Shown: piece after piece, positions 1,812-41,191 of the stretch
How the letters are laid out: each line of letters begins with the position of its first letter
Position numbering within the stretch: position 1 is the stretch's first letter
From: Singulisphaera sp. GP187
Lineage (GTDB): Bacteria; Planctomycetota; Phycisphaerae; Phycisphaerales; SM1A02
Reading direction: 5' to 3'
DNA length: 64,000 nucleotides
Assembly (NCBI GenBank): GCA_945871915.1
Contig: CAMBXO010000008.1
Span: forward strand, 62,001-126,000
The notes under the pieces: model-generated
What the model saw: the letters and a program-made list of their open reading frames with translations, nothing else
The model's database searches: none
Told to the model about the DNA's origin: nothing
Program-made: the position numbers and the translations under genes

Positions 1812-2921
1812 TTAACGCATATCTAGATGCCGGAATCGAAGCCGCCGGCCTTGGTCAGAAGTTTCGTCTGAGGTATTGGCCGTTGGTTTTCCATCCAGAT
1901 CAAGTTCCCGCGAGGCCCCCTCGAGGTCAATCAGGTCCTCCCACCGACTCTCTGCCTGAACATGCCCATCCAGCAACAGCATGGAACATTGGTCGTTGGA
2001 TGAACCAAAGTTCACTTGTGTCAAATCTGCGTTTCCAAAGAGCGGCGCGAACGAGGCCGTACCGGAAAGTGGATCGACCACCGTGTCAATGGTTTGACAG
2101 GCAGCACTCTCAATCAAATAGACGCTGGTGTCTGGTTGAGCAATCTGGCCTGTTGTAAATAGCGCGCAATACTGCCCCGTGGTGGTCACACCTGTTGCCA
2201 AATTTTGCGAGGCTCGACAAAGTTCCGCGCGAGCATCGTAAGGGTGATTGGTCTTGATCCGTTTGGAATGCGGCGTACCGCCCGCCACAGTGCCAGGCCT
2301 TCCATCAAAGAAATTGTTGGCCGCAAGAAAAACAGGCTCGTCAACATTCAGAGTTCGGGAACCAAACTTGTTCTCGTCAATATCGGGATCCTCACTGATC
2401 TTTTCGCTGCCCGAACCGCTATACAGAAAGAGCGTGTCCCGCGAGATCGGGGAGTTGCTTCGAAAGGGACTCTTGTCGTAATTCGTAATCACCTCGTACA
2501 ACATCCCGTCAGGTTCGTCGGTGCGGTACGCCAAATCTGCTGCGGCATCTGGATTGGCTGTCGTGGCCATTGAAACAGCGATCGGCCCAAAATTATTGTC
2601 GTTCCACAGAATGTCCGCCCATGTCCCCATGAGCCGCTCACCCAGAAGTCCCCATTGCTGCGTTTTTTTCGGCCCGCTGCGAGGATGCCCGCTGACGGCA
2701 GCTTCGCGATGATCAAAAAGGCTTGGAACAATAATGTCGCGGTTGGCACCTGAGTACGCCTGAATCAACGAGAACACCTGTCTCATATTGGCCTGCGTCT
2801 TGGCCCGCACGGCATTGCCACGCACCGCCGTGATGGCTGGCAGCAAGATGGCCGCCAGCACTCCAATGATGCCCAGCGTGGCAAGAATCTCAACAATCGT
2901 AAAGCCAGTTCGTGAACGCAT
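1812..2921 (-). CDS. prepilin-type N-methylation domain protein (pseudopilin-like)
   Basis: The N-terminus MRSRTG/FTIVE is a type III (prepilin) signal. Cleavage is expected after Gly6, giving Phe as the methylated first residue and Glu at mature position 5. The hydrophobic helix (about residues 8-30) follows. The 369-residue protein belongs to the large group of planctomycete secreted proteins with a pilin-like N-terminus. Its C-terminal part carries a MLLLDGHVQ stretch of the kind seen in that group. An AGGAGA ribosome-binding site precedes the ATG. Export by a type II secretion or type IV pilus-like assembly system is inferred; no such machinery is in the window. Its specific role is unknown. 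Confidence 0.85.
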   Translation of the reverse strand: MRSRTGFTIVEILATLGIIGVLAAILLPAITAVRGNAVRAKTQANMRQVFSLIQAYSGANRDIIVPSLFDHREAAVSGHPRSGPKKTQQWGLLGERLMGTWADILWNDNNFGPIAVSMATTANPDAAADLAYRTDEPDGMLYEVITNYDKSPFRSNSPISRDTLFLYSGSGSEKISEDPDIDENKFGSRTLNVDEPVFLAANNFFDGRPGTVAGGTPHSKRIKTNHPYDARAELCRASQNLATGVTTTGQYCALFTTGQIAQPDTSVYLIESAACQTIDTVVDPLSGTASFAPLFGNADLTQVNFGSSNDQCSMLLLDGHVQAESRWEDLIDLEGASRELDLDGKPTANTSDETSDQGRRLRFRHLDMR

Positions 2922-2988
2922 GGGGGGTCTCCTGTGAGTCGCTGTCGCACCGTGGCATACGCGGCGGTGAGGGTCTGGGATGCCCGAA

Positions 2989-4434
2989 TCAACCCATGTT
3001 CATGGTCATCAGGAATTCGGCGTTGCTCTTGGTTTTGCTCACGCGGCTCTTCAAAAGTTCCATGGCTTCCACCACATTCATGTCGCTCACCACTTTACGA
3101 AGGCGCACAATAAGTTCGTGTTCCTTCGGATCGAGCAACAGTTCCTCGCGCCGCGTACCGCTGGCTGCAACATCAATTGCCGGGAAAATGCGCTTCTCAA
3201 TCAACTTGCGGTCAAGGTGCAATTCCGAATTACCCGTTCCCTTGAACTCTTCAAAGATCACCTCGTCGGCTCGACTGCCCGTGTCCACAAGTGCGGTTCC
3301 CAAAATAGTGAGTGAACCGCCGTTCTCAATGTTGCGAGCACTTCCAAAGAACTTCTTCGGTCGAATCAGCGCCGTGGTGTCCACACCGCCAGAGCCAATC
3401 TTGCCTCCGCCCTGCATGCCGTTGTTATAAGCACGAGCAAGGCGTGTAATTGAATCCAGCAGAATGACAACATGCTGCCCGCACTCCACCATGCGACGGG
3501 CCTTTTCCATCACCATCTCGGTCACCTGAATGTGGCGAGTCACTTCTTCGTCAAAGGTGCTTGCAATCACTTCCACGCGGTCAGGCGTGTTGCGGCGGAA
3601 GTCGGTGACTTCTTCAGGCCGTTCATCGATCAACAGAACAATCACATGCACATCGGGATGGTTCTTGCAAATGGCATTCGTGATCTGTTGCAGAATCACG
3701 GTCTTTCCAGTTCGCGGCGGCGCCACAATAAGTGCTCGCTGACCGAAACCAAGCGGCGTGACCATGTCAATGATGCGAGTCTCAATTTTTGTCGGCTGAT
3801 CGATCATCTCTAAATGGATGCGCTTATCGGGGTGCAGCGGCGTGAGGGCCTCAAAGGTTGGCAAGTCCCGAAGTCGCTTGGGGTCACCGCCATTCACCTG
3901 ATCCACCCGCAGCAAGGCGAAGAAAATCTCGGTGTCCTTGGGTGGTCGCACCACGCCAGTCACAACCTGCCCCTTGCGAAGCCCAAGTCGATGCACGATC
4001 GACGGGCTGACATAAATGTCATCGGGGCTTGGCAGGTAACTGTATTCACTGCTGCGAAGAAAACCGTAGCCCTCTGGCATCAGGTCCAGCGTTCCTGTTG
4101 CAATCATCAGGCCGTGCTGTGTGGCGCGGTGTCTGAGAATCTCAAACACCAAACGCTGCTTGCTCATGTTGTCCTGATTCTCAATCCCCTCCTTGCGGGA
4201 CAACTTCACAAGTTCGTCGCCATTCATGCGCTGCAGACCCACCAGATCAAGGTCTTCTTTCTTGGCAATCTTCATCTTGCCGCCGGACTCCGCCTCAAGC
4301 TGGCGCAAGTCCATTTCCAATTGCTCATCGCTTGGCATGCTGCCCGGTGCAAAAGTGATTGAGGGCATGTACGGCTGCCCGGTTGGCTGACCCGGTCCAC
4401 CACCACCCTTACGACGACGACGACGCTTGCTCAT
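2989..4434 (-). CDS. rho: transcription termination factor Rho
   Basis: This is the hexameric RNA helicase that terminates transcription. A basic N-terminus (MSKRRRRRKGGGG) and Gly/Pro-rich leader precede the Rho N-terminal helix bundle and the cold-shock-like RNA-binding domain (GYGFLRSSEYSYLPSPDDIY). The ATPase core has Walker A PPRTGKT, Walker B VILLDSITR and the R-loop segment TGSRADEVIFEEFKGTGN. The open frame extends 33 codons further upstream, to 4533. The ATG at 4434 is preferred because the extra segment does not look like Rho and the basic start is typical. The predicted length is 481 residues. The gene lies 156 bp downstream of coaE on the same strand. Confidence 0.95.
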   Translation of the reverse strand: MSKRRRRRKGGGGPGQPTGQPYMPSITFAPGSMPSDEQLEMDLRQLEAESGGKMKIAKKEDLDLVGLQRMNGDELVKLSRKEGIENQDNMSKQRLVFEILRHRATQHGLMIATGTLDLMPEGYGFLRSSEYSYLPSPDDIYVSPSIVHRLGLRKGQVVTGVVRPPKDTEIFFALLRVDQVNGGDPKRLRDLPTFEALTPLHPDKRIHLEMIDQPTKIETRIIDMVTPLGFGQRALIVAPPRTGKTVILQQITNAICKNHPDVHVIVLLIDERPEEVTDFRRNTPDRVEVIASTFDEEVTRHIQVTEMVMEKARRMVECGQHVVILLDSITRLARAYNNGMQGGGKIGSGGVDTTALIRPKKFFGSARNIENGGSLTILGTALVDTGSRADEVIFEEFKGTGNSELHLDRKLIEKRIFPAIDVAASGTRREELLLDPKEHELIVRLRKVVSDMNVVEAMELLKSRVSKTKSNAEFLMTMNMG

Positions 4435-29803: not shown

Positions 29804-32800
29804 ATGATCGCACTCACTCTCTTTGCCGCACTGATCGCTTCCCCACCAGAAACTTCTGCGAATGCTGTAGCTCCAATCGTGACGCCACCGGCGGCGACCG
29901 AGGAACCGCCCCATGACCCCGAAGGCATTGTGCTGCCCGAAGGATTTGTGTGGGATGAATGGGCGCGTGAGCCGCTTGTTCCTGATCCGGTTGCTTTCAC
30001 GATTCTGCCAGATGGTTCGCTCTATGTGTGTGAGAGCGAACGGCAGGATCGCGGAGTGGAGGACAATCGCTACTCACCCTACTGGCTGCTTGAAGACCTC
30101 GCGTGCACAACAGTTGAGCAGCGGCGGGCGATTTATGAGAAGTGGGCGGCCAAAAAAGAGGGCGGTATGGATTGGTATTCCAAATGGGCGGATCGCGTGC
30201 GTCGGTTGCGCGACACGGATCACAATGGGACGGCTGATCAGTCGACCAATTTCTCTGGCGATCTTCGTGAAGTGCTCGACGGCACAGCGGCCGGTGCTCT
30301 CCAGGTTGGTGATGCGTTGTGGGTGACCAGTATTCCGCATGTTTGGCGATTCGTGGATCAAGATGGCGATGGTGTGGCGGAGGTTCGTGAGAAATTGTTC
30401 ACTGGCTTTGGAGTGAAGACCAGTTTGCGAGGCCACGACATGCACGGGTTGGTGCAAGGTCCCGATGGTCGGATTTATTGGAGCATTGGTGATCGCGGGT
30501 ATTCCGTCCGCACGCGTGAGGGAACGCTTCTGGCCGATCCGAGTACCGGTGCAGTTTTTCGCTGTGAAACAGATGGCAGCCATCTTGAAGTGATCCATCG
30601 CGGGCTTCGAAATCCTCAGGAACTCGCGTTTAATGATCTTGGTGATTTGTTCACCGTGGACAACAACTCGGATGGTGATGACAAGGCTCGCGTGTGCCTG
30701 ATTCAGGATGGTGGCGAGAGTGGATGGTTCATGCCGCTTCAAACGCTTGAGGGCGACAACAAACGAGGGCCGTGGAATCAGGAGCACATGTGGCACACTT
30801 TTGACTCGACCGATTTGGTTCAGCCGGCGTGGATCACTCCGCCGCTGGCTCATCTCACATCGGGGCCATCTGGATTGGCGGCGTATCCGGGAACTGGATT
30901 TCCAAGTGACTTCGATGGATCGTTTCTTGTTTGTGATTTTCTTGGCGGTGATTCCTATAGCCAAGTCTGGCGATTCGGGGTGCGACCGACTGGTGCGGGC
31001 TACGAAATGGTTGATCCGCAGATTTTCATCAAGAATGTGTTGCCAACGGATGTTGAATTTTCGCCAGATGGAAAGTTGTATGTCAGCGATTGGTGGAACG
31101 GTTGGCAGAGCGATGGCAAGGGCCGCATCTATCGAGTGTGGCATCCGCAGGCGGCGGCCAAGCCCGCGGCAACCGAGGCGATTCGTTTGTTGGCGGAGGG
31201 ATTTGAAAAACAATCTGATGCGACGCTGTTTTCTTTGCTCTCGCATGACGATCGGCGGTTGCGGCAAGGGGCGCATCTTCAATTGGCACACCGCGCCCTT
31301 GCGACCGGGGATCGATTGGCGTTGTTGCTGCGCGATACCACCACCCCACTTCGCGTGCGGCTTCATGCACTCTGGGCACTGCAAGTGATTTCGCGAACGA
31401 GTGCAGATCCGTCGGCGGCTTCCAAGGCGTGCACTGCACTGTGTGATGCGTGCCAAAGTGAGCAGGAAGAAATCAGGGCGCAGGCGGCTCGGGCGCTTGG
31501 TGATGCAACATGTCGTGGGGCAGCAGAGGCTGTGCGATCGCTCGCGACGGATGAGTCAACGCGCGTGCGGGCGATGGCGTGTGGCGCGTTGGGGCGGCTC
31601 AAGGACACAGCATCTCTGGCCGAATTGACGGCAGTTCTTTGGGAAAATGAAGACAAGGACCCTTGGCTGCGGCATGCGGCGGCCACCGCGCTCGCTCGCA
31701 TTGGAGATCGCGTGGCGATTCAGACGCTCGCGATGGATCCTTCGCCGCAAGTTCGCATGGGTGCGGCGATCGCATTGCGCCAACTCAAAGACCCGGCGAT
31801 CGAACGGCTTCTCTTTGATCCGGATCCTCGCATTGCCATTGAAGCGGCACGAGCGATTTATGATCTTCCGATTGGTTCTGCGATGCCAGCGCTTGCATCG
31901 CTTGGAGATCGGTTTGTGGAAGGCGCTTCGAAGGCGGACATTGGTTCGTTCACCATTGACGATGTTCGACTTCTTCCGCTTCTTCGCAGAGTGATCGGCG
32001 CGAACAGGCTCTCTGCGGATCCCGCTGCTGCGGCCCGGCTGGCGGGGCTTGCGCAGAGTTCTAAAGTTCCTGCTGCGGCCCGAGTTCTTGCAATCGAGGC
32101 CCTCGCAGAGTGGGCCGCGCCAGGGCCACGCGAGCCAGTAAGCGGTGCGATCGTCATGGTTGATCCGGCGGCACGAGATGTGGTTGCGTGGAAATCTTTG
32201 CTCGCAATTCGACTTCCAGATTTGTCGGCTCATGCCAGTGACGAAAGCGTGCGAACGAGGGCAAGGGCCATGGCAGATCAATTGGGGATTGTGATGGATT
32301 CTGGTGCGGCGCTCCGCACTGCGCTTGATCCACATGCAAGTGTTGGCGAGCGCATCGCGTGTCTCTCCCAATTGGAACGAGGCGGTGGTGAGGCACTGCG
32401 GCAAGCGCTCGCTGCGTCACTCAACGCTCCGGAGTGGCCGCTTCGGTCTGCCGCTCTCACCATACTTTCTCGAACGGATCCGGTTGACGCTTTGGCGAGA
32501 ATTTCTCGCGTGCTGGCTGGTGCAGAAGTCGCCGAACAACAGGCGGCAATTCAATTGCTTGCAAACATGAAGTCAGACAGTTCGCGAGATTTGATTCGTG
32601 GCCTCGCTGATCAATTGCTTGCAGGAACACTGTCACCAGCGTTGCAACTGGAAGTCATTGATGCGTGCGCCGCGTGCGGTGTGTATCCAAACGAACTCCG
32701 ACAATTCAAGGCTGCTCGACCGGCCAACAATTCGTTTGACGAATGCCTCGATGGTGGTGACTCGTCGCGTGGCAAGCGAATTGTGGTTGGGCATGTCAGT

Positions 32801-33040
32801 GCGCAGTGCCTTCGGTGCCATGCTCTTGCTGGCGCGGGCGGTGTTGCGGGTCCGTCACTTGAGGGCGTTGCCACTCGGCACAATCGCAATGCCCTGCTTG
32901 AGAGTTTGGTGAATCCAAACGCTCACATAGCTGCGGGCTTTGGTCCAACGAGTGCGATGCCGAATATGTCGGCGTTACTCACTCCACGGGAAATTCGAGA
33001 TGTTGTTGAGTACTTGAGCACGCTCAAGGCTGGGCAGTAG
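29804..33040 (+). CDS. PVC-type membrane-bound dehydrogenase: beta-propeller, HEAT repeats and cytochrome c domain
   Basis: This 1078-residue secreted protein is of a kind abundant in Planctomycetes and Verrucomicrobia. A signal peptide (MIALTLFAALIASPPETSA) precedes a soluble sugar-dehydrogenase-like propeller (about residues 40-460), with GPDGRIYWSIGDRGYS and DVEFSPDGKLYVSDWWNGW. A long HEAT-repeat region follows (about 500-900), with repeats such as VRAMACGALGRLKD and VRMGAAIALRQLKD. The C-terminal cytochrome c domain has CLRCH at 1002-1006 and a candidate distal Met in SAMPNMS. Electron transfer from oxidation of a carbohydrate-like substrate is inferred. Its stop codon lies inside a 35-bp inverted repeat. 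Confidence 0.9.
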   Translation: MIALTLFAALIASPPETSANAVAPIVTPPAATEEPPHDPEGIVLPEGFVWDEWAREPLVPDPVAFTILPDGSLYVCESERQDRGVEDNRYSPYWLLEDLACTTVEQRRAIYEKWAAKKEGGMDWYSKWADRVRRLRDTDHNGTADQSTNFSGDLREVLDGTAAGALQVGDALWVTSIPHVWRFVDQDGDGVAEVREKLFTGFGVKTSLRGHDMHGLVQGPDGRIYWSIGDRGYSVRTREGTLLADPSTGAVFRCETDGSHLEVIHRGLRNPQELAFNDLGDLFTVDNNSDGDDKARVCLIQDGGESGWFMPLQTLEGDNKRGPWNQEHMWHTFDSTDLVQPAWITPPLAHLTSGPSGLAAYPGTGFPSDFDGSFLVCDFLGGDSYSQVWRFGVRPTGAGYEMVDPQIFIKNVLPTDVEFSPDGKLYVSDWWNGWQSDGKGRIYRVWHPQAAAKPAATEAIRLLAEGFEKQSDATLFSLLSHDDRRLRQGAHLQLAHRALATGDRLALLLRDTTTPLRVRLHALWALQVISRTSADPSAASKACTALCDACQSEQEEIRAQAARALGDATCRGAAEAVRSLATDESTRVRAMACGALGRLKDTASLAELTAVLWENEDKDPWLRHAAATALARIGDRVAIQTLAMDPSPQVRMGAAIALRQLKDPAIERLLFDPDPRIAIEAARAIYDLPIGSAMPALASLGDRFVEGASKADIGSFTIDDVRLLPLLRRVIGANRLSADPAAAARLAGLAQSSKVPAAARVLAIEALAEWAAPGPREPVSGAIVMVDPAARDVVAWKSLLAIRLPDLSAHASDESVRTRARAMADQLGIVMDSGAALRTALDPHASVGERIACLSQLERGGGEALRQALAASLNAPEWPLRSAALTILSRTDPVDALARISRVLAGAEVAEQQAAIQLLANMKSDSSRDLIRGLADQLLAGTLSPALQLEVIDACAACGVYPNELRQFKAARPANNSFDECLDGGDSSRGKRIVVGHVSAQCLRCHALAGAGGVAGPSLEGVATRHNRNALLESLVNPNAHIAAGFGPTSAMPNMSALLTPREIRDVVEYLSTLKAGQ

Positions 33041-33104
33041 AGAGGGACGGGGGTGGTGGCGGTAACTATTTACCGCCACCACCCCCGTCCCTCTCTACTG
33101 CCCA
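33031..33104. repeat. perfect 35-bp inverted repeat carrying the stop codons of two convergent genes
   Basis: Arms 33031-33065 and 33070-33104 are exactly complementary over 35 nt, with a 4-nt loop (CTAT). The left arm includes the TAG of the PVC-type gene (33038-33040). The right arm holds the TAG of the opposite-strand lipoprotein gene (33095-33097). Both proteins therefore end in Gly-Gln, encoded by the same repeat. No U-run follows on either strand, so it is not a classical intrinsic terminator, but it could terminate or protect both transcripts. Confidence 0.9.
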
Positions 33105-33937
33105 CGATGGAATGTCATCGTGATCGATTGTCCAGCAACATCTCCAACAGCAGTCGGAGAAAACTGGATTTGAAAAGTCTCTGGCGAAGAAAAATACGCC
33201 TTGCCTTGCATTCCCCAGCCCGCCCGACCGCTCGACCATGCGATCGACGCGACGACCGCGCCATCCGGTCCAATCTTTCCTGTGAGAGTCGCCTGCACTG
33301 GTTCATTCCACTCGGTCGAATTGAACGCGTCATCCACCAATGCGCCATTCATCACCCCATCTTCTGAAATCCGAACCGTTCCGCTGCCATAATCCGGCCC
33401 TCCATCAAACCAATTCACGATCCATGTTCCGGTCCATCGCTTCTGAAAATCCGGCTGCTGCGTTGTTGCGGGGGTTCCAAACGGCGGACTCCCCGACACG
33501 CCCTGTTCATGCAAGGACAACACCATCATGTTTGCAGCGTTCGATCCATCAGGCACCAAATTCGCTCCAAGCGAACCAAATCCCTTATTGCTGCACGCGC
33601 CGGAATACTTTTCTGCAGCTCCTGAACCCGTCCAAGAAACCACCAATTTCAAAGTCCCACCGTTCGCGGTCCCAACGACGGTCGCCACTCGCGGACTCAC
33701 CGTGTCGCCGCTGTGCGTTACCGCCGAATCATTCATGGATCCTCGCACCCGCCCATCCGGATCAATGACCAACCGAACTGTTCCTCCACTCGCACCTTTG
33801 TTACTCATAAAACTTCCGGCCCATCGCCCGGCGAGCGAGACATTGGCCTTCGCTCCACCACCAACGGCTGGTGCAGCACATCCGGTGAAGATTGCCAATG
33901 CAAGGCACGCGCACAATTGAAGGATGTTGATTCGCAT
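33095..33937 (-). CDS. predicted lipoprotein
   Basis: This 280-residue protein has a lipoprotein signal (MRINILQLCACLALAIFTGC) with the lipid-attachment Cys in FTGC, followed by a Gly/Ala-rich stretch. Two similar beta-rich halves each start with a segment of the form R-W-x-G-T/S: LAGRWAGSF at the front, and KRWTGTWIVNWF at about residue 180. Each half is followed by GTVRLVIDPDG or GTVRISEDGVM. This suggests a duplicated lipocalin- or DUF-like beta-barrel. The start is the ATG with AGGA upstream; others exist at 33946 and 33970. The function is unknown. It is convergent with the PVC-type gene. Confidence 0.75.
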   Translation of the reverse strand: MRINILQLCACLALAIFTGCAAPAVGGGAKANVSLAGRWAGSFMSNKGASGGTVRLVIDPDGRVRGSMNDSAVTHSGDTVSPRVATVVGTANGGTLKLVVSWTGSGAAEKYSGACSNKGFGSLGANLVPDGSNAANMMVLSLHEQGVSGSPPFGTPATTQQPDFQKRWTGTWIVNWFDGGPDYGSGTVRISEDGVMNGALVDDAFNSTEWNEPVQATLTGKIGPDGAVVASIAWSSGRAGWGMQGKAYFSSPETFQIQFSPTAVGDVAGQSITMTFHRGQ

Positions 33938-33970
33938 GCGATCCATCCTAACGCCGATCGCTGCATCCAC

Positions 33971-34771
33971 TCATAAATTCTGCACCGCCAACTGTCCGCC
34001 ATCCACAGGAACAATCGCTCCATTGACGAACGATGCTTCCGGCGAACAAAGAAACGCAACGACAGCGGCAATTTCTTCAGGGGTTCCAATCCGCCCCACC
34101 GGAATTCGTGCGACCGTCTCTTGCTCGACCACCTGGACCGAACTTCCCGCCCGCGACGCTCGCCCCTGAATCAACGCATCAAACCGCCCAGTCTTGGTTG
34201 CGCCGGGCATCACCGCATTGGCGGTAATCGAAAACCGCCCAAGTTCACTCGCAAGCGTTCGAATCCAATTTCCCATGGCTGCTCGCACAACATTGCTCAC
34301 GCCAAGACCACGGATCGGAGTGACCACGCTGGTGCTTGTCACCGCAACGATGCGTCCGAACCCCGCGCCGCGCATTCCTGAAACACAGGCCTGCACCACT
34401 CTCTGAGCGGTGCAAACATGCTGATGGATTGCTCGCCCAATGTCTTCTGCGTTGGCATCAATAAGAAATCCGGGCGACGGACCACCGCTGTTGATCACAA
34501 GAATGTGCACCGCACCAAGCTTTGCCACGAAACCATCCATGGCCAATTCCATGGCATTCCCATCAGCATGATCTTGCAACAACATCTCGTGTGAACCGCC
34601 ATCAACTGCGGGAAGCTCCTTGAGAACTTTCTCCAACCCCTCAGCATTGCGGCCTGAAATAATCACCCGTGCACCCCGCGTTGCAAGTTGCATCGCACAC
34701 GCCCTGCCGATTCCTTGTGACGCCCCGCCCACCATGGCAACACGATTCGAGAGTGTTCCAGCATTGGTCAT
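33971..34771 (-). CDS. SDR family oxidoreductase, atypical (catalytic Tyr and Lys replaced)
   Basis: The 266-residue protein has a short-chain dehydrogenase Rossmann fold: GGASQGIGRA, a NSGG segment, VAVTSTSV near the catalytic Ser, and the C-terminal EIAAVVAFLCSPEASFVNGAI. In place of the YxxxK catalytic pair there is S-N-V-V-R (GLGVSNVVRAAM). Other bacterial SDRs with LSNxLR at this site are known, so this is a subgroup feature and not necessarily a defect. The start is the ATG of MTNAGTLS. The frame is open 59 codons further upstream, which overlaps the kinase gene on the other strand. The reaction is unknown. Confidence 0.85.
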   Translation of the reverse strand: MTNAGTLSNRVAMVGGASQGIGRACAMQLATRGARVIISGRNAEGLEKVLKELPAVDGGSHEMLLQDHADGNAMELAMDGFVAKLGAVHILVINSGGPSPGFLIDANAEDIGRAIHQHVCTAQRVVQACVSGMRGAGFGRIVAVTSTSVVTPIRGLGVSNVVRAAMGNWIRTLASELGRFSITANAVMPGATKTGRFDALIQGRASRAGSSVQVVEQETVARIPVGRIGTPEEIAAVVAFLCSPEASFVNGAIVPVDGGQLAVQNL

Positions 34772-34809: not shown

Positions 34810-36618
34810 ATGCCATTGGAAAGCATTCGGCCAGAGGAGGCTGTGCGGCGTGTTCTTCCGCTTCCGGAGGATCGTCGGGCTCAAGCATTGAAACGATTGC
34901 TGCAAGGGCGGCCACTGGAGCTCTCTCGCGCACTTGATTTGCTGCCAACGATTGGCGACACGCCCTCGCGTTCCATGCTGACTGAAAGTCCAGAGGTCCC
35001 GCGAATCACAATTGGGCCATACACCCTCCGAAGTGTGTTGGGAGAAGGTGGGTTTGGAATCGTGTGGCTTGCAACACAGGAAACACCGCTCAATCGGTCG
35101 GTTGCACTCAAGATTCTTCGCCCCGACAAGTTTGACCCCACCAACATTGCGCGATTCGAGGGCGAGCGCCGTCTTGTGTCGATGCTGAATCATCCATCGC
35201 TCATCAAGGTTTTTGAAGCTGGCACTGCAGAAGATGGTCGCCCCTGGTTCACCATGGAACTTGCACAGGGCGCGCCGATCACCGAGGCATGTGATGCTGC
35301 ACGACTCTCCATCACTGACCGAGTGCGACTGATGTCGCAAGTGGCAAGAGCCGTTCACTATGCCCACGAGCACGGACTTGTGCATCGCGATCTGAAGCCG
35401 GGAAATATTTTGCTCTCGTTCGAAGCAGATCAGATGTCGGTCAAAGTCATCGACTTCGGAGTCGCGCATTCCACGTTCGATCCCGTTGATCCAGATCAGC
35501 GAGCTGGGTCGTTGATTGGTACGCCGGATTATCTGGCGCCAGAACTCTTGCGTCTGCACACGGTCGAACCTGTTGCACGCACAGACATTTTCGCTCTTGG
35601 TGTCATCCTCAGGCGGCTTCTGACCGGGAGTGATCTTGGAGATCGAAACGAGGGTCTGCTCTCAGCGATTGATGTTCTTGACGCTGATCTTCGAGATCAG
35701 GTTGCCGCAGATCGAAATGAACCTCTCTCCTCTTTGCGCCATCACCTTGAAGGCGACTTGGATGCAATTGTGTCTCACTGCCTCGCAGCGGATCCGCGTC
35801 GTCGCTACGCAACCGCGCTCGACTTGGCACAAGACCTCGATCACTTCATTGCGGGTGAACCTGTTCTTGCACGCGGCAATTCACTTGTGTACCGCGGCGC
35901 GACCGCGGTTCGCAGAAACTCTACGGTGATCACACTCTCGCTTCTGATCGTTCTGGTTTCACTCGCCGGAACAATTTGGGCGGTACGCGAGCGGCAGGTC
36001 GCCATGATTGCACGAGACCAGGCACAGATCAATGCGCGACAAGTGCAGGCCGCCAACGCATTTGTTGTGGACCTGCTGACTGAAATCATCGAAGCCCCCG
36101 CGGCCTCTCCTCAAACTCCAGCCGACATTCTGACCGAGGCCAGTCGGCTCGCTGGGCTTCGCCTCGCAGCAAATTCCAGTCAGGAGGCGCATGTTCGTGC
36201 CGCCATCGGACACTTGTGGATGGGCCTCGATCGAAATGATCTTGCGGTCCAGGAATTGCTGCGAGCCGAGTTGCTCTTTCGCCAAATCGATGACCTGTCT
36301 CACTTGCAAGAAGTGCGCATGACCCGTGCGACGGCTCTTCGACTTGCTGGAAGGCTCAAAGAAGCTCGAACCGATGCCATGGCGGCGCTGGCGGATTACG
36401 TTGCCTCGGTTCCAAGTGATCCGGATGATGTCGCCCGCGCGTGGATTGAACTTGCACACATTGAGAGTGCCGACGGCCAACGCGAGGAAGCCAGAAAAAA
36501 CCTTGGCTATGCAAGTGAAACGCTTTCACAGGCACCCGGACAATCTGATCCTGTGAATAGGGAACTGATTCGGGCCATGTCCGACCTTGGATTTACAAAG
36601 TTGCCCTTGGCCCCATAG
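34810..36618 (+). CDS. transmembrane serine/threonine protein kinase
   Basis: This 602-residue protein has a Hanks-type kinase domain at about residues 71-350. It has the glycine-rich loop GEGGFG (78-83), Lys101 in VALKIL, HRDLKPGN (192-199), DFG (215-217) and GTPDYLAPE (237-245). One transmembrane helix (about 373-392) follows. The C-terminal region of about 200 residues, with Ala/Leu-rich helical pairs, resembles TPR repeats and would lie outside the membrane. No ribosome-binding site precedes the ATG, but a -10-like TACCAT ends 6 nt upstream. The next gene, 56 bp downstream, encodes an FHA-sigma fusion, a plausible phosphorylation target. Confidence 0.92.
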   Translation: MPLESIRPEEAVRRVLPLPEDRRAQALKRLLQGRPLELSRALDLLPTIGDTPSRSMLTESPEVPRITIGPYTLRSVLGEGGFGIVWLATQETPLNRSVALKILRPDKFDPTNIARFEGERRLVSMLNHPSLIKVFEAGTAEDGRPWFTMELAQGAPITEACDAARLSITDRVRLMSQVARAVHYAHEHGLVHRDLKPGNILLSFEADQMSVKVIDFGVAHSTFDPVDPDQRAGSLIGTPDYLAPELLRLHTVEPVARTDIFALGVILRRLLTGSDLGDRNEGLLSAIDVLDADLRDQVAADRNEPLSSLRHHLEGDLDAIVSHCLAADPRRRYATALDLAQDLDHFIAGEPVLARGNSLVYRGATAVRRNSTVITLSLLIVLVSLAGTIWAVRERQVAMIARDQAQINARQVQAANAFVVDLLTEIIEAPAASPQTPADILTEASRLAGLRLAANSSQEAHVRAAIGHLWMGLDRNDLAVQELLRAELLFRQIDDLSHLQEVRMTRATALRLAGRLKEARTDAMAALADYVASVPSDPDDVARAWIELAHIESADGQREEARKNLGYASETLSQAPGQSDPVNRELIRAMSDLGFTKLPLAP

Positions 36619-36674
36619 GGATCACGGCGCATCCCAGCACATCGTCGCCGCCTTCGCCGTGATACAAACTACGC

Positions 36675-37670
36675 ATGCCTTCGCTCATTGAACTTCCGAT
36701 ACGGCTTCAGCGCGCAACCGGCCCAGCATGCGAAGACCTTCTTGTGGAAACACATGGTCAACGAACGATTGGCCGCGGTAGTGACTCTGATATTTCTCTT
36801 GACAACGATTCGGTTTCGCGGTTGCACGCACAACTCTGCTGGTCGGCGGATTCCGTTGCAACGATTGTTGACCTTGGAAGCAAGCATGGGACCTTGCTCA
36901 ATGGCGCATTTCTTGAACCCAAAGAACCGTTCCCACTGCACAATCGCGATCTTGTAACCATTGGCCCGTGGACATTTGTTGTTCGACTTGCTGGTGAACC
37001 AGAGGAAACACATGTTGCGCCACCTCTCGCTTCAGATGCTCCAGTCGCTGAAACTCCAGCCCCAGAAGCAAGTGCCAAGCCGCCCGATCCCTACCGCACC
37101 CGCGCAAGTGTTCTCTTGAGATTGCGAGCCAACGGAACGCTTGACCGAGAAGTTGGGTGGAATGATTTTTCCCGTATCTACGGTCCTGTCATCGCCGGAT
37201 TTGCCAGAAATTCTGGAGTGCCTCCACAAGAAATTGATGATGTGTTGCAAGATGTCATGCTTGGTTTTTTCCGGCAGTCACAAAATTTCATTTACGACCC
37301 GTCGCGAGGTCGGTTTCGTGGCTATCTCAAAACCGTCACACTCAATTCGATTCGGGATCGCCACCGACGCAAGCGGCCCAAGGTTGGCATTCCGGAACAG
37401 TTTGATCCCTCCACAGACGATGATCGGTTGCAAGCCGCGTGGGATCACGAGTGGACACAGAGTCTGCTGCATCGGGCTATGGAGCGGGTGAAAGTAGCTG
37501 TCAAACCCAACACTCTGGAAGCATTCGATCGCTATGGAGTTCGAGGCGAACCCGCTGAGAGTGTTGCCAAAGCTCTTGGAATGAGTGAGGCCTCTATTCG
37601 ACATGCCAAAATGCGTGTGATGCATCAGTTGCGTGAAGAGATTCAGCGACTTCGAGCAGAGGAAGGCTGA
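36675..37670 (+). CDS. FHA domain fused to a sigma-70 family (ECF-type) factor
   Basis: This 331-residue protein carries an N-terminal forkhead-associated domain, with IGRGSDSD at 32-39, SVSRLHAQL at 46-54 and LLNG at 74-77. FHA domains bind phosphothreonine. A Pro/Ala-rich linker (about 108-138) leads to an ECF-type sigma factor. Region 2 lies at about 164-230, with EIDDVLQDVMLGFFR and RFRGYLKTVTLN. Region 4 lies at about 262-325, with AESVAKALGMSEASIRHAK as the helix-turn-helix. The gene follows the kinase gene. A phospho-dependent switch for promoter recognition is inferred. GH63 starts 3 bp after its stop, so the two are probably co-translated. Confidence 0.88.
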   Translation: MPSLIELPIRLQRATGPACEDLLVETHGQRTIGRGSDSDISLDNDSVSRLHAQLCWSADSVATIVDLGSKHGTLLNGAFLEPKEPFPLHNRDLVTIGPWTFVVRLAGEPEETHVAPPLASDAPVAETPAPEASAKPPDPYRTRASVLLRLRANGTLDREVGWNDFSRIYGPVIAGFARNSGVPPQEIDDVLQDVMLGFFRQSQNFIYDPSRGRFRGYLKTVTLNSIRDRHRRKRPKVGIPEQFDPSTDDDRLQAAWDHEWTQSLLHRAMERVKVAVKPNTLEAFDRYGVRGEPAESVAKALGMSEASIRHAKMRVMHQLREEIQRLRAEEG

Positions 37671-37673
37671 GGC

Positions 37674-40343
37674 GTGAACGAAGGTCTTGCAAACGATCCC
37701 GAGCGACTTCGTCTGCGGGAGGATTCAACCGATCGCCGCTGGCGCCGCTGGGGTCCGTGGCTCAGCGATCGACAGTGGGGAACGGTGCGCGAGGATTATT
37801 CAGCGGACGGCAACGCATGGAAATATTTCACCCACGATATGGCCCGAAGCCGCGCCTACCGCTGGGGCGAAGATGGGCTTGCCGGATTTTGCGATGACAA
37901 GCAGCGGTTGTGCATGGCGCTGGGACTCTGGAATGGAAAAGATCCAATCCTTAAGGAACGACTCTTTGGTCTAGACAACAGCGAGGGGAATCACGGTGAG
38001 GATGTGAAGGAGTTGTACTGGCATCAGGATGCCACTCCGACTGGCAGTTACTTGCGATTCCTTTACAAGTATCCGCAACGAGCCTTTCCATACGACGAAC
38101 TTGTTGCCGTCAATGCTTCTCGCACCAATCTGCAACCGGAATATGAACTCTTGGACACGGAAGCCATGTCCGATCAGAGATATTTTGATGTGACGATCGA
38201 GTGGGCAAAGGCCGACCCGAACGACATTTTGTGGCGCGTCACAGCCAAGAACAACGGCCCTGATCCCGCGCCGATCACTCTGCTTTTGCAAACGTGGTTT
38301 CGCAATACATGGTCGTGGGATGTGGGTGCGGTGGCGCCCACTTTGAGTCAGGCGGGTCGCAACGCCATGTGTGCCGATCATCCGCAATTAGGTCGACTTG
38401 TGTTGGAATGCGATTCGCCAGACCAAACGCTTTTCTGCGAAAACGAAACCAACACGGAGCGATGCTTTGACAAGCCCAATCGAAAAGGTTTGCACCCAAA
38501 AGACACCTTCAACGACTTTGTTGTGAAAGGCACCTTGCCATCGCTGCCCGCAAAAACAAGCGGAACCAAGGGGGCATTTCTTCGCACCATCACCATCCCC
38601 GCCGGTGGTGAAGTGGTGATGCGTGCAAGGTTGCGACCCGAGAATGCCAAGGGGAAACCATTCGCTGACTTCGATGGCGTTCTGAAATTGCGTCAGTCCG
38701 AAGCCGATGCGTTTTATGCAGTCATCGCCAGACCCGATGCCTCACCCGAACAACTTCTGGTTCAACGACGCGCGTACGCGGGGTTGCTCTGGAATTATCA
38801 GTGGTACCAATACGATGTTCACCGTTGGCTGCAAGGAGATCCGACACAGGACCCGCCTCCACCAGAGCGCCTGCTTGGTCGGAATCATCGCTGGCATCAC
38901 ATGGATGCCGAAGCGATTCTCAGCATGCCGGACAAGTGGGAATACAGTTGGTTTGCCCACTGGGATCTTGCGTTTCAATCCATTACGACTGCGGTGATTG
39001 ATATCGATCGCGCCAAACGGCAGATCTGGCAGGTGGTCCAGCCGTGGATGCAGCATCCAGAGGGGCAAGTGCCCGCATACGAATGGGCTTTGAGCGATGT
39101 GAATCCGCCAACGCTCGCGTGGGCGGCCTATCGAATTTTCCAGATTGATTCACTCAGAAATGGAAAGCAGGATTACGACTTTCTCTCTGAGATCCTTCAC
39201 AAGTTGTTGCTCGACTTTACATGGTGGGTCAATCGCAAGGACGCGGATGGTCGCAATGTTTTTGAAGGCGGCTTTCTTGGGTTGGACAACATTGCCATCT
39301 TTGATCGAAGCCGACCGCTACCAACTGGCGGAACGATCATGCAAAGTGACGGCACGGCGTGGGTCGCCAAGTATTGCCTGGATCTGCTGAGAATCAGCTT
39401 GGAATTGACTGACGTCGGTCGACCGTATGCAAGTTTGGTTGAGAAATGCCTTGAGCATTTTCTGCAGATCGCTGGTGCCGCCACCAATCTAGGCGGCCGC
39501 GGTGTCGACCTTTGGAATGAAGAGGATCAATTCTTTTACGACTTGTTGGTCCTTCCAGATGGCCGCACCATTCCACTAAAGGTCAAGAGCATTGTTGGAT
39601 TGGTGCCGCTCTTTGCTTGCACGGTCATCGATGAATTCGACATGCAGAAGCAGCCACTGTTGGACCGGCGATTCAAATGGTTTCTCGACCGTCGCCCGGA
39701 TCTTGCCGGACTGATCTCACACTGGAATGTGACGGGTGTTGGCCAGCGTCGACTGCTGAGTTTGCTTCGCGGCCACCGAATGAAAGCCCTTCTTCGCCGC
39801 GCTCTTGACGAAAAACAATTTCTCTCACCCTATGGCATTCGAAGCGTCAGCCTTGAACATCGCGACCACCCCTATCGCCTCGAAGTTGATGGACAGTCAT
39901 GGGAACTGGCGTATGCACCCGGCGAGAGTGTGAGTAGTGCGTTTGGAGGCAATTCCAATTGGCGCGGACCCGTGTGGTTTCCTATGAACTACTTGCTGAT
40001 CGAATCGCTCTATCGCTACCACAATTATTACGGTGATGACTTCAAAGTGGAGTGCCCAACCGGAAGTGGCAACATGCTTTCGCTTGCGGGGGTTGCACAG
40101 TTTCTTGCCGAGCGATTAACGCGACTGGTGCTTCCTGGCAAAGATGGTGTGCGTCCGGCCAATGGGAATTATCCCCGAATGGATACCGATCCACTCTTTC
40201 GCGGAAACCCGCTCTTTCACGAGTATTTCCACGGTGATTCCGGTTGTGGGCTTGGCGCAAGTCACCAGACTGGGTGGACCGCCACGATCGCCATGCTGCT
40301 TGGAAATTATCAACGCGATTCGATTTCTCGTTTCGTGAAGTGA
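37674..40343 (+). CDS. GH63-like (MGH1-like) glycoside hydrolase
   Basis: An 889-residue protein with an (alpha/alpha)6 toroid glycosidase domain of the GH63/MGH type. Diagnostic segments are the N-terminal WGPWLSDRQWGTVREDYS, the SWFAHWDLAFQ segment (its Asp is the candidate acid catalyst) and the C-terminal HEYFHGDSGCGLGASHQTGW, whose Glu could be the base. No signal peptide is visible, so a cytoplasmic alpha-glucosidase or glucosyl/mannosylglycerate hydrolase role is possible. The start is GTG, 3 bp after the stop of the sigma-FHA gene. The stop lies within a tandem 22-bp duplication. Confidence 0.87.
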   Translation: MNEGLANDPERLRLREDSTDRRWRRWGPWLSDRQWGTVREDYSADGNAWKYFTHDMARSRAYRWGEDGLAGFCDDKQRLCMALGLWNGKDPILKERLFGLDNSEGNHGEDVKELYWHQDATPTGSYLRFLYKYPQRAFPYDELVAVNASRTNLQPEYELLDTEAMSDQRYFDVTIEWAKADPNDILWRVTAKNNGPDPAPITLLLQTWFRNTWSWDVGAVAPTLSQAGRNAMCADHPQLGRLVLECDSPDQTLFCENETNTERCFDKPNRKGLHPKDTFNDFVVKGTLPSLPAKTSGTKGAFLRTITIPAGGEVVMRARLRPENAKGKPFADFDGVLKLRQSEADAFYAVIARPDASPEQLLVQRRAYAGLLWNYQWYQYDVHRWLQGDPTQDPPPPERLLGRNHRWHHMDAEAILSMPDKWEYSWFAHWDLAFQSITTAVIDIDRAKRQIWQVVQPWMQHPEGQVPAYEWALSDVNPPTLAWAAYRIFQIDSLRNGKQDYDFLSEILHKLLLDFTWWVNRKDADGRNVFEGGFLGLDNIAIFDRSRPLPTGGTIMQSDGTAWVAKYCLDLLRISLELTDVGRPYASLVEKCLEHFLQIAGAATNLGGRGVDLWNEEDQFFYDLLVLPDGRTIPLKVKSIVGLVPLFACTVIDEFDMQKQPLLDRRFKWFLDRRPDLAGLISHWNVTGVGQRRLLSLLRGHRMKALLRRALDEKQFLSPYGIRSVSLEHRDHPYRLEVDGQSWELAYAPGESVSSAFGGNSNWRGPVWFPMNYLLIESLYRYHNYYGDDFKVECPTGSGNMLSLAGVAQFLAERLTRLVLPGKDGVRPANGNYPRMDTDPLFRGNPLFHEYFHGDSGCGLGASHQTGWTATIAMLLGNYQRDSISRFVK

Positions 40344-40376
40344 TGGCTTGGATATCGTGAAGTGATGGCTTGGATA
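40333..40376 (+). repeat. tandem 22-bp duplication
   Basis: Two perfect adjacent copies of a 22-bp unit (40333-40354 and 40355-40376; unit begins TCGTGAAGTGATGG) span the end of the GH63 gene. The first copy contains its stop codon. The second lies between that stop and the start of the DUF1579 gene. It looks like a recent slippage or duplication event. Confidence 0.85.
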
Positions 40377-40387
40377 CGCTGCAAAGC

Positions 40388-41191
40388 ATGAAACGCTTTC
40401 ACGCTATCGCTCTTCCGGCCACCGTTGTGTTCGCACTCCTCGCCACTTCCGTCCTTGCTCCGCACGCCATGGGTGTGCAGTCGGATGGTGTGCAGCAGAC
40501 AGAATCGCCCGCCATGATGAAGTCCGAAGATGCTCACGCACTCCTTGCACAAATTGTTGGCATCTGGAACATGCAGGGTCAATCCATTGGGCCCGACGGT
40601 CAAGTGGAATTCACGCTTCAGGGTCGCTGCGTGTGGCAATGGGCCATGGGCGGCGTCTTTCTCTTTGGTGACACACTTCTGTCGAATGGTGGCGCCGTAA
40701 TGCAGGAGATCGACTGCCTTGCCTTCAACGCTGCCGCTGGAACTTTTCAACGAACCTTGATGACCGATCGCGACACGGCGACCATTTGGCAACAAGGAAC
40801 ATGGGACGACACGTCTAAGGTTTTTACCATGCAGTCGATCGGTGCCATTCAAACAGCTGCTGGAACCAAACGGCAATTCACTACCGTTGTCAATCTTGAA
40901 CAGAAGGATCGCATGGCGTGGACAACGAGTTACTTTGAGGCCGGTCAACTGGTGGGAACGATTCGGATGGTGTGTTCACGCACGGTTCAGGGTGAGGGCT
41001 CCGCTGCCATGATTCCTGGCTTGCCAACCAATGCTCCAACAACTGCCAATGGAAACCTAGATGCCAATGCTTTGCAGGGGCAATTGAATCAAATGGTGGC
41101 AAGCAAGCAGCAACTTCAGGGGCAGATCGATGATTGGAAGAAGCGCGTGAAAGCATCGCAGGACTCAATGAATCAACTCACATCCCCTTGA
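40388..41191 (+). CDS. secreted DUF1579 family protein
   Basis: This 267-residue protein has a signal peptide (MKRFHAIALPATVVFALLA). A DUF1579-like beta-barrel domain follows: LLAQIVGIWNMQGQS, then GRCVWQWAMGGVFLFGD, RTLMTDRDTATIWQQGTWDD and IRMVCSRTVQG. The C-terminal tail is rich in Gln/Ala with a likely coiled coil (LNQMVASKQQLQGQIDDWKK). Related proteins bind or sense small ligands; the role is unknown. The start is the ATG at 40388. The gene is 44 bp after GH63, on the same strand. Confidence 0.82.
   Translation: MKRFHAIALPATVVFALLATSVLAPHAMGVQSDGVQQTESPAMMKSEDAHALLAQIVGIWNMQGQSIGPDGQVEFTLQGRCVWQWAMGGVFLFGDTLLSNGGAVMQEIDCLAFNAAAGTFQRTLMTDRDTATIWQQGTWDDTSKVFTMQSIGAIQTAAGTKRQFTTVVNLEQKDRMAWTTSYFEAGQLVGTIRMVCSRTVQGEGSAAMIPGLPTNAPTTANGNLDANALQGQLNQMVASKQQLQGQIDDWKKRVKASQDSMNQLTSP

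Follow-up and report, generated by a model that had tools for sequence, protein, structure and literature searches.

How does a signal reach a sigma factor that carries a predicted phosphothreonine-binding domain of its own, and does the protein kinase encoded beside it take part? This question is raised by a locus in the window, i.e., the whole stretch of 64,000 nucleotides that was analysed, which belongs to a genome of 2.24 Mb (98% complete). A gene for a Hanks-type Ser/Thr kinase (34810-36618, plus strand, ATG start; Pfam Pkinase 2.1e-39) is followed after 56 bp by a gene for a 331-residue fusion of an FHA domain with an ECF sigma factor (36675-37670, plus strand) and, 3 bp later, by a gene for a GH63/MGH1-like glycoside hydrolase (37674-40343, plus strand, GTG start; PF22422 1.5e-19, PF03200 7.6e-7). 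A gene for a DUF1579 protein lies downstream (40370-41191, plus strand; Pfam 6e-12), and a short-chain dehydrogenase gene (33971-34771, minus strand; Pfam adh_short_C2 1.2e-41) diverges from the kinase gene, whose start is 38 bp away. The open reading frame coordinates agree with the order and gaps given in an earlier, sequence-only reading of this DNA. That reading had also stated that no anti-sigma gene is adjacent; indeed, none of four neighbours scanned with Pfam (the dehydrogenase, the DUF1579 protein, the product of 33095-33970, which has no Pfam match, and that of 29804-33040) matches an anti-sigma family. With a kinase 56 bp upstream and no anti-sigma match among these four, the locus resembles those of the planctomycete groups ECF59, ECF61, ECF62 and ECF217, which in the passages cited from PMC8999054 have a Ser/Thr kinase nearby and no anti-sigma factor; the likeness is one of gene layout only, and these passages do not mention FHA domains. 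In the genome as a whole, 11 sigma matches to TIGR02937 exceed the cut-off, besides three FHA matches and six Hanks kinases. Elsewhere in it (contig C5, 89091-91944), another ECF gene and a Hanks kinase gene lie about 1.6 kb apart on opposite strands.

Pfam, NCBIfam and PDB sequence searches place both parts of the fusion on one open reading frame, as the sequence-only reading had proposed. The FHA domain occupies residues 31-97 (36765-36965, plus strand; Pfam 1.4e-18) and Sigma70_r2 residues 169-234 (8e-11), and the sigma70-ECF family TIGR02937 spans residues 163-322 (4.7e-14; 52.3 bits against a cut-off of 42.9). Sigma70_r4 taken alone stays below the Pfam cut-off (0.04); together with the helices of the predicted structure, the TIGR02937 match gives the sigma2 plus sigma4 build without sigma3 that marks an ECF factor (37104-37667, plus strand). 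The AlphaFold model (mean pLDDT 86.3), built from 70 sequences of which 61 were fusions, predicts the FHA domain with confidence, leaves residues from about 107 to 143 flexible (36993-37103, plus strand) and places helices that fit sigma2 and sigma4. Block means of pLDDT fall to 44-67 across residues 111-150, and this linker differs in sequence and length among the aligned relatives. A frameshift or assembly artefact is excluded because 13 genomes of the same genus (g1, that of the window's genome) carry a near full-length fusion without internal stops (58-77% identity); two more carry fragments at contig ends.

The pocket by which FHA domains recognise phosphothreonine appears to be intact. 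Arg34, Ser48, His51 and Asn76, the residues singled out in the sequence-only reading, are at the expected positions and are kept in 74, 74, 75 and 69 of 76 aligned proteins, respectively, as is Arg49 in 74. With both the fold and the Arg/Ser/His/Asn pocket in place, phosphothreonine binding is predicted from the sequence. The pocket is also intact in all 22 aligned rows of a sister clade that has no kinase nearby, and its retention, these rows included, says that the FHA domain is probably used in most clades. In a structural comparison that covers the FHA part and barely the sigma part, the closest folds are OdhI (Z 17.4, 99 residues, 1.6 A), GarA (Z 17.3) and DgcB (Z 16.9), none of which is a sigma factor, and EmbR follows with Z 16.2 (100 residues, 2.4 A).

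EmbR and its kinase PknH from Mycobacterium tuberculosis, likewise a Hanks kinase and a transcription regulator bearing an FHA domain, provide the model for what we consider the best explanation, namely that the FHA domain docks on the phosphorylated kinase, to which we assign a probability of roughly 0.47. In the passages cited from PMC4601284, truncation or mutation of the FHA domain abolishes EmbR phosphorylation by PknH, and phosphorylation stimulates the interaction with promoters; EmbR needs its FHA domain to interact with PknH, and the match of the FHA model to EmbR speaks for docking here. However, EmbR is a SARP-type regulator with a C-terminal FHA domain, whereas here the domain is N-terminal on a sigma factor and docking is predicted from fold and linkage. 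In outline, a planctomycete-type, kinase-linked ECF factor would have gained an N-terminal phosphothreonine reader. The kinase, when stimulated, would phosphorylate itself or a partner on threonine, and the FHA domain would dock on that phosphothreonine with the flexible linker tethering the sigma part. Docking would then lead to efficient phosphorylation of the sigma factor, to a change in the amount free for RNA polymerase, or to both. At loci that lack a linked kinase gene, we assume that the phosphothreonine comes from a kinase encoded elsewhere or from a different phosphoprotein. That the domain binds phosphothreonine, that it docks on the kinase and that transcription responds is what we infer; the near-invariant pocket, found in the 22 kinase-less rows as well, argues for this explanation.

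Whether the kinase belongs to the system can be judged from the spread of the fusion and from its neighbours. Besides the window, fused genes number at least 74 in 16 genera of the window's family, as counted with HMMs in the loci of the best-scoring family matches. They include L077, in which the FHA match reaches 3.8e-4, and L044 and L074, which run off the ends of their contigs; L040 probably repeats L039, from the same genome, and was not counted, yet it stays in the 76-row alignment. The named loci L159-L191, which mostly repeat the same genomes, stand outside the 74 and alone comprise 34 fused genes, 18 of them within 1.6 kb of a kinase. At E<=1e-10 the protein matches 151 of 181 family genomes, many matches spanning the sigma part only. 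In a phylum sample searched at E<=1e-60, a threshold that would miss weaker fusions such as L189 and L086, the fusion was found in three of 392 genomes, all of the window's family, from which at least ten genomes were sampled. The class search gave full-length matches in this family only, among the matches listed (best five candidates per genome), and the plasmid sequences searched gave no fusion match. One weaker fusion outside the 74 is L189, from a Phycisphaeraceae metagenome-assembled genome (FHA 8.7e-14). A 65-residue piece of another FHA gene (L121), in an unchecked frame, had no match in the domain scan. Because matches extend across the family and the phylum sample is positive in the family alone, the fusion looks like an invention of the window's lineage, within the sensitivity of the class and phylum searches.

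A Hanks kinase lies within 1.6 kb of 39 of the 74 fused genes (within 0.5 kb in 28 of the 39), and 9 of the 16 genera have at least one fusion linked in this way. About 2% would be expected by chance, an estimate made from the six kinases in the 2.24 Mb of the window's genome only; g1 genomes have 5-12 kinases each, and other genera do not enter the estimate. Gaps were measured between stop-to-stop frames, so true gaps are somewhat larger. Since loci within one clade are not independent, clades are a better count than genes, and the layouts are indeed clade-specific on the sigma tree. In the window, 12 g1 loci (L092-L103) and L104 of another genus, 14 of 14 cases, the kinase lies upstream in the same direction; it is divergent in 9 of the 12 genes of the g7 clade, one of the other three having only 720 bp of upstream DNA. 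In another clade it is downstream and co-directional, overlapping or 24 bp off (5/5), and in yet another it lies 1.2-1.4 kb upstream (9/9). L086, left out of the sigma tree, is also a fusion (FHA 1.3e-9), with an overlapping downstream kinase. On the kinase tree the linked kinases fall in different lineages: those at about 1.3 kb are sister to L126, an unlinked kinase of the window's genome about 50 kb from the fusion, and the divergent ones group with the L086 kinase and the unlinked L124. That different layouts sit on different sigma clades, with kinases of different lineages (kin of L126 among them), favours docking, as does a linkage of 39/74 against the estimated background. What the sequences themselves show is the fusion with its conserved pocket, a kinase that retains the catalytic motifs, and the recurrence of the linkage. 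In g37, two loci (L033 and L075) have two fusion paralogues about 4 kb apart, only one of which adjoins a kinase.

It could be argued that the neighbourhood is accidental and that the fusion has no functional tie to the kinase or the hydrolase, given that the linkage is absent from the sister clade and that the hydrolase is genus-specific. We regard this as very improbable: L104 and each of the 12 loci L092-L103 have the kinase immediately upstream of the fusion, and the recurrence greatly exceeds the estimated background. The kinase link, real as it is, does not hold everywhere. No kinase was found in the sequence examined for 28 of the 74 fused genes, some flanks ending at contig ends, and these include 21 of the 23 genes in the sister clade of the window's group; the other two (L033_10153 and L075_5336) have one at 4.2 kb. 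For the clade as a whole there is no kinase within 4 kb in the sequence examined, which is shorter than that on a flank of five genes (L036, L044, L109, L113 and L116). The idea that repeated linkage would be found is borne out by several arrangements; on the opposite concern, that FHA-sigma genes might usually not lie near kinases, the result is split between the 39 linked genes and the 23-gene clade.

The kinase-less loci speak against docking, as do the exceptions in the pocket. Asn76 is replaced in seven of the 76 proteins, by Asp in six and by Gly in one, and the genes concerned are four of the five in the clade with a downstream kinase plus L086, L071 and L069. The nearest kinase to L069 is 6.7 kb away, and the other six (L033_5931, L075_9209, L076, L078, L086 and L071) directly adjoin a kinase, the opposite of what docking would most simply predict. 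Another reading is one in which the FHA domain binds some other phosphoprotein, such as a transporter or channel, an RNA polymerase subunit or a scaffold, and in which kinase neighbours are an inheritance of the ECF class. Kinase-less fusions adjoin an SSF symporter (L110, 10509-12167) or a mechanosensitive channel (L058, 10982-11959; L066, 8081-9472), possibly osmotic stress genes, and ECF factors of this class are linked to kinases also where FHA is missing. This reading is nevertheless unlikely in our judgement, since different fusion clades are linked to kinases that differ in lineage and orientation, which the simple inheritance of a single pair would not produce.

The main rival of docking on the kinase is an intramolecular or dimer switch, in which the protein's own FHA domain, or that of a partner, would clamp a phosphorylated threonine of the sigma factor, located in the linker or at T142, T155 or T222. 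In OdhI and GarA the FHA domain clamps the protein's own phosphorylated threonine, and DgcB, going by the title of its structure, forms an FHA complex with its own phosphorylated N-terminal peptide; all three are among the closest folds. Such a switch would also work with an unlinked kinase. Threonine is found at position 222 in 73 of 74 fusions versus 25 of 56 sigma-only relatives, and at 155 in 54 of 74 versus none of 56. However, no threonine is both invariant in and confined to the fusions, and the variable linker has no visibly fixed threonine. T142 occurs in all 74 fusions, but as 53 of the 56 sigma-only relatives share it, it was set aside as a phosphosite specific to the fusions. On balance, a switch of this kind seems somewhat unlikely.

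The sigma-only relatives also bear on the origin of the fusion. They come from Planctomycetota, Kiritimatiellota, Lentisphaeria, Opitutaceae and others. Of 29 named loci, 24 have a kinase no more than 1.5 kb away (no more than 0.5 kb in 21 of the 24; two of the five exceptions lie less than 400 bp from a contig end), as do 9 of 9 cases in the window's family. Since a kinase is the usual neighbour of these relatives, the known kinase-linked ECF class is the most likely origin of the fusion, and their linkage counts in favour of docking. So does locus L211, in a Kiritimatiellota metagenome-assembled genome, where an ECF gene precedes a kinase with an N-terminal FHA domain (2089-4026; FHA 4.5e-15, Pkinase 6.6e-44), which by its sequence is a case of the same parts joined differently. 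In the sigma4 region the fusions differ from sigma-only relatives at R309 (67/74 versus 3/56, the latter usually having Tyr), and this difference suggests that they may serve a promoter class of their own.

The sequence-only reading had invoked PknT and EcfP as a parallel. In EcfP/PknT and EcfK/PknS, kinase-ECF pairs of group ECF43, the passages cited from PMC8999054 and PMC13147305 offer a precedent for restoration of charge: here the kinase would phosphorylate region sigma2.2 or the loop between sigma2 and sigma4, and the FHA domain would only recruit it. The main text of PMC13147305 does not mention FHA. According to the passages used, ECF43 mostly lacks the charged sigma2.2 motif, an acidic DAED-like motif replaced by Thr, whereas the window protein has E-I-D-D at residues 186-189 and D193. 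E186, D188, D189 and D193 are present in all 10 rows of the window's clade, and D189 is kept in all 76 aligned proteins. Since these acidic residues are intact, activation of the EcfP type is disfavoured in the window's clade and was rejected as the main mechanism there; the parallel with PknT/EcfP is not supported for the window, and EmbR/PknH is the better analogue. Passages on the motif disagree: in those of PMC8999054, groups other than ECF43 keep it, whereas those of PMC8103513 name ECF43, ECF59 and the original ECF60 as having lost it. For the fusions as a whole we consider charge restoration quite improbable; going by the residues, it could hold in some clades, above all in g7. Among the 12 g7 genes compared (L041, L043, L045, L047-L054 and L063), Thr stands at position 193 in all eight whose divergent kinase is no more than 130 bp away, and the remaining four have Asn: L049, with a kinase at 1.5 kb, and L053 (720 bp of upstream sequence only), L054 and L063, where none was seen. 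The pattern is suggestive of charge restoration in g7, where a charge-restoring Thr may have been added on top of the FHA reader. However, the Asn rows form one clade, and the Thr/Asn split is a single change on the tree.

The motifs HRDLKPGN and DFG are intact in the window's kinase (34810-36618). The sequence-only reading had described a transmembrane kinase with an extracytoplasmic TPR-like region. The kinase itself is well supported; the single hydrophobic segment is seen by eye in the sequence, and the roughly 190 residues that follow it have weak TPR similarity, the match to Pfam TPR_12 (E=0.056) being below the cut-off. TPRs are scored in two other kinases linked to such fusions. Among the aligned g1 kinases no activation-loop threonine is conserved outside the structural GTP motif, which weighs against docking. 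The N-terminal segment of the window's kinase is kept across g1, and an LPT motif in it (Thr47, counted from the start at 34810) is present in all 15 aligned g1 kinases; as a guess, this Thr47 is a candidate docking site for the FHA domain in g1.

The spacer before the fusion gene contains a -10-like element, TGATACAAA (36660-36668, plus strand), which ends 6 nt before the ATG and whose function is assumed from its form. Its core, TGATACAA, is common to L092, L093, L094 and L080, and L104 has TGATAGAA. Of the 23 sister-clade genes, 20 have TAYVAN with its end 6-9 nt ahead of an in-frame ATG, as do L092-L094, against 0-2 of the 23 at other distances; the hexamer variants are TACAAC, TATGAT, TATCAT and TACAAG, the exception in the sister clade is genus g11, and the promoter-like layout of the other g1 subclade differs. 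The hexamer is placed as if transcription were leaderless. A general habit of leaderless transcription was not supported as the cause: TANNNT stands 5-8 nt before the start in 4 of 43 window genes and at other distances in 0-3 of the 43. Because a conserved -10-like element precedes it, the fusion gene may be transcribed apart from the kinase gene, a further point against docking on the kinase. A perfect 9-bp inverted repeat, ATCACGGCG/CGCCGTGAT (36621-36629 and 36655-36663), also lies in this spacer; it overlaps the element and is absent from the spacers of L092-L094.

The third gene of the run has a narrower distribution beside the fusion. The identification of a GH63-like glycosidase in the sequence-only reading holds, with PF22422 at 71.2 bits (cut-off 27) and the GH63 C-terminal profile PF03200 at 28.7 bits (cut-off 22.4); against the PDB there is a marginal match only (4j5t, 0.0046). 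In blastp comparisons the hydrolase is present in 12 of 12 of L092-L103 and in fragment L118; its distance from the fusion is 3 bp at some loci and about 700 bp at others. Because it adjoins the fusion in g1 only, among the loci compared, the trio of kinase, FHA-ECF factor and hydrolase is a local form of a more widespread two-part pattern; a three-gene unit did not emerge as a general arrangement, and the hydrolase was dropped as a shared target of the sigma factor. L104 and the majority of g1 loci have a DUF1579 gene close to the fusion; L104 also shares the divergent short-chain dehydrogenase gene, as do those g1 loci long enough to cover that region.

No description of an FHA-ECF fusion was found in the literature searched, a search in which key papers on ECF classification and planctomycetes were not included. 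The former groups ECF87-89 are, like the fusions, planctomycete ECF factors with N-terminal extensions, on which the passages cited from a 2021 review (PMC8103513; source Wiegand et al. 2020) give no mechanistic information and do not state the nature of the extensions; the fusions may overlap with these groups. For Rhodopirellula baltica, the part of PMC2754498 cited names RB1789 as an FHA protein and RB1790 as an ECF factor; with their consecutive locus tags, the two are perhaps an unfused pair.

It is reasonable, on the sequence evidence, to regard the fusion as a new form of the kinase-linked ECF class and docking as its working hypothesis. How kinase-linked ECF factors outside ECF43 are controlled is left open in the passages cited from PMC8999054, and for one large clade the conserved FHA domain of the sigma factor offers a concrete, testable answer; natural versions of the fusion with and without a linked kinase exist for comparison. 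The modular layout could also serve the building of kinase-to-gene circuits. As a tentative extension, the sigma factor itself may be the phosphothreonine reader, in a one-step route from kinase to promoter with neither an anti-sigma factor nor a partner switch, and this reader may have been re-paired with different Hanks kinases across genera, somewhat like a two-component system made from eukaryotic-type parts. At the least, an FHA-ECF factor beside a kinase suggests a short kinase-to-gene signalling route in an aquatic planctomycete-like family.
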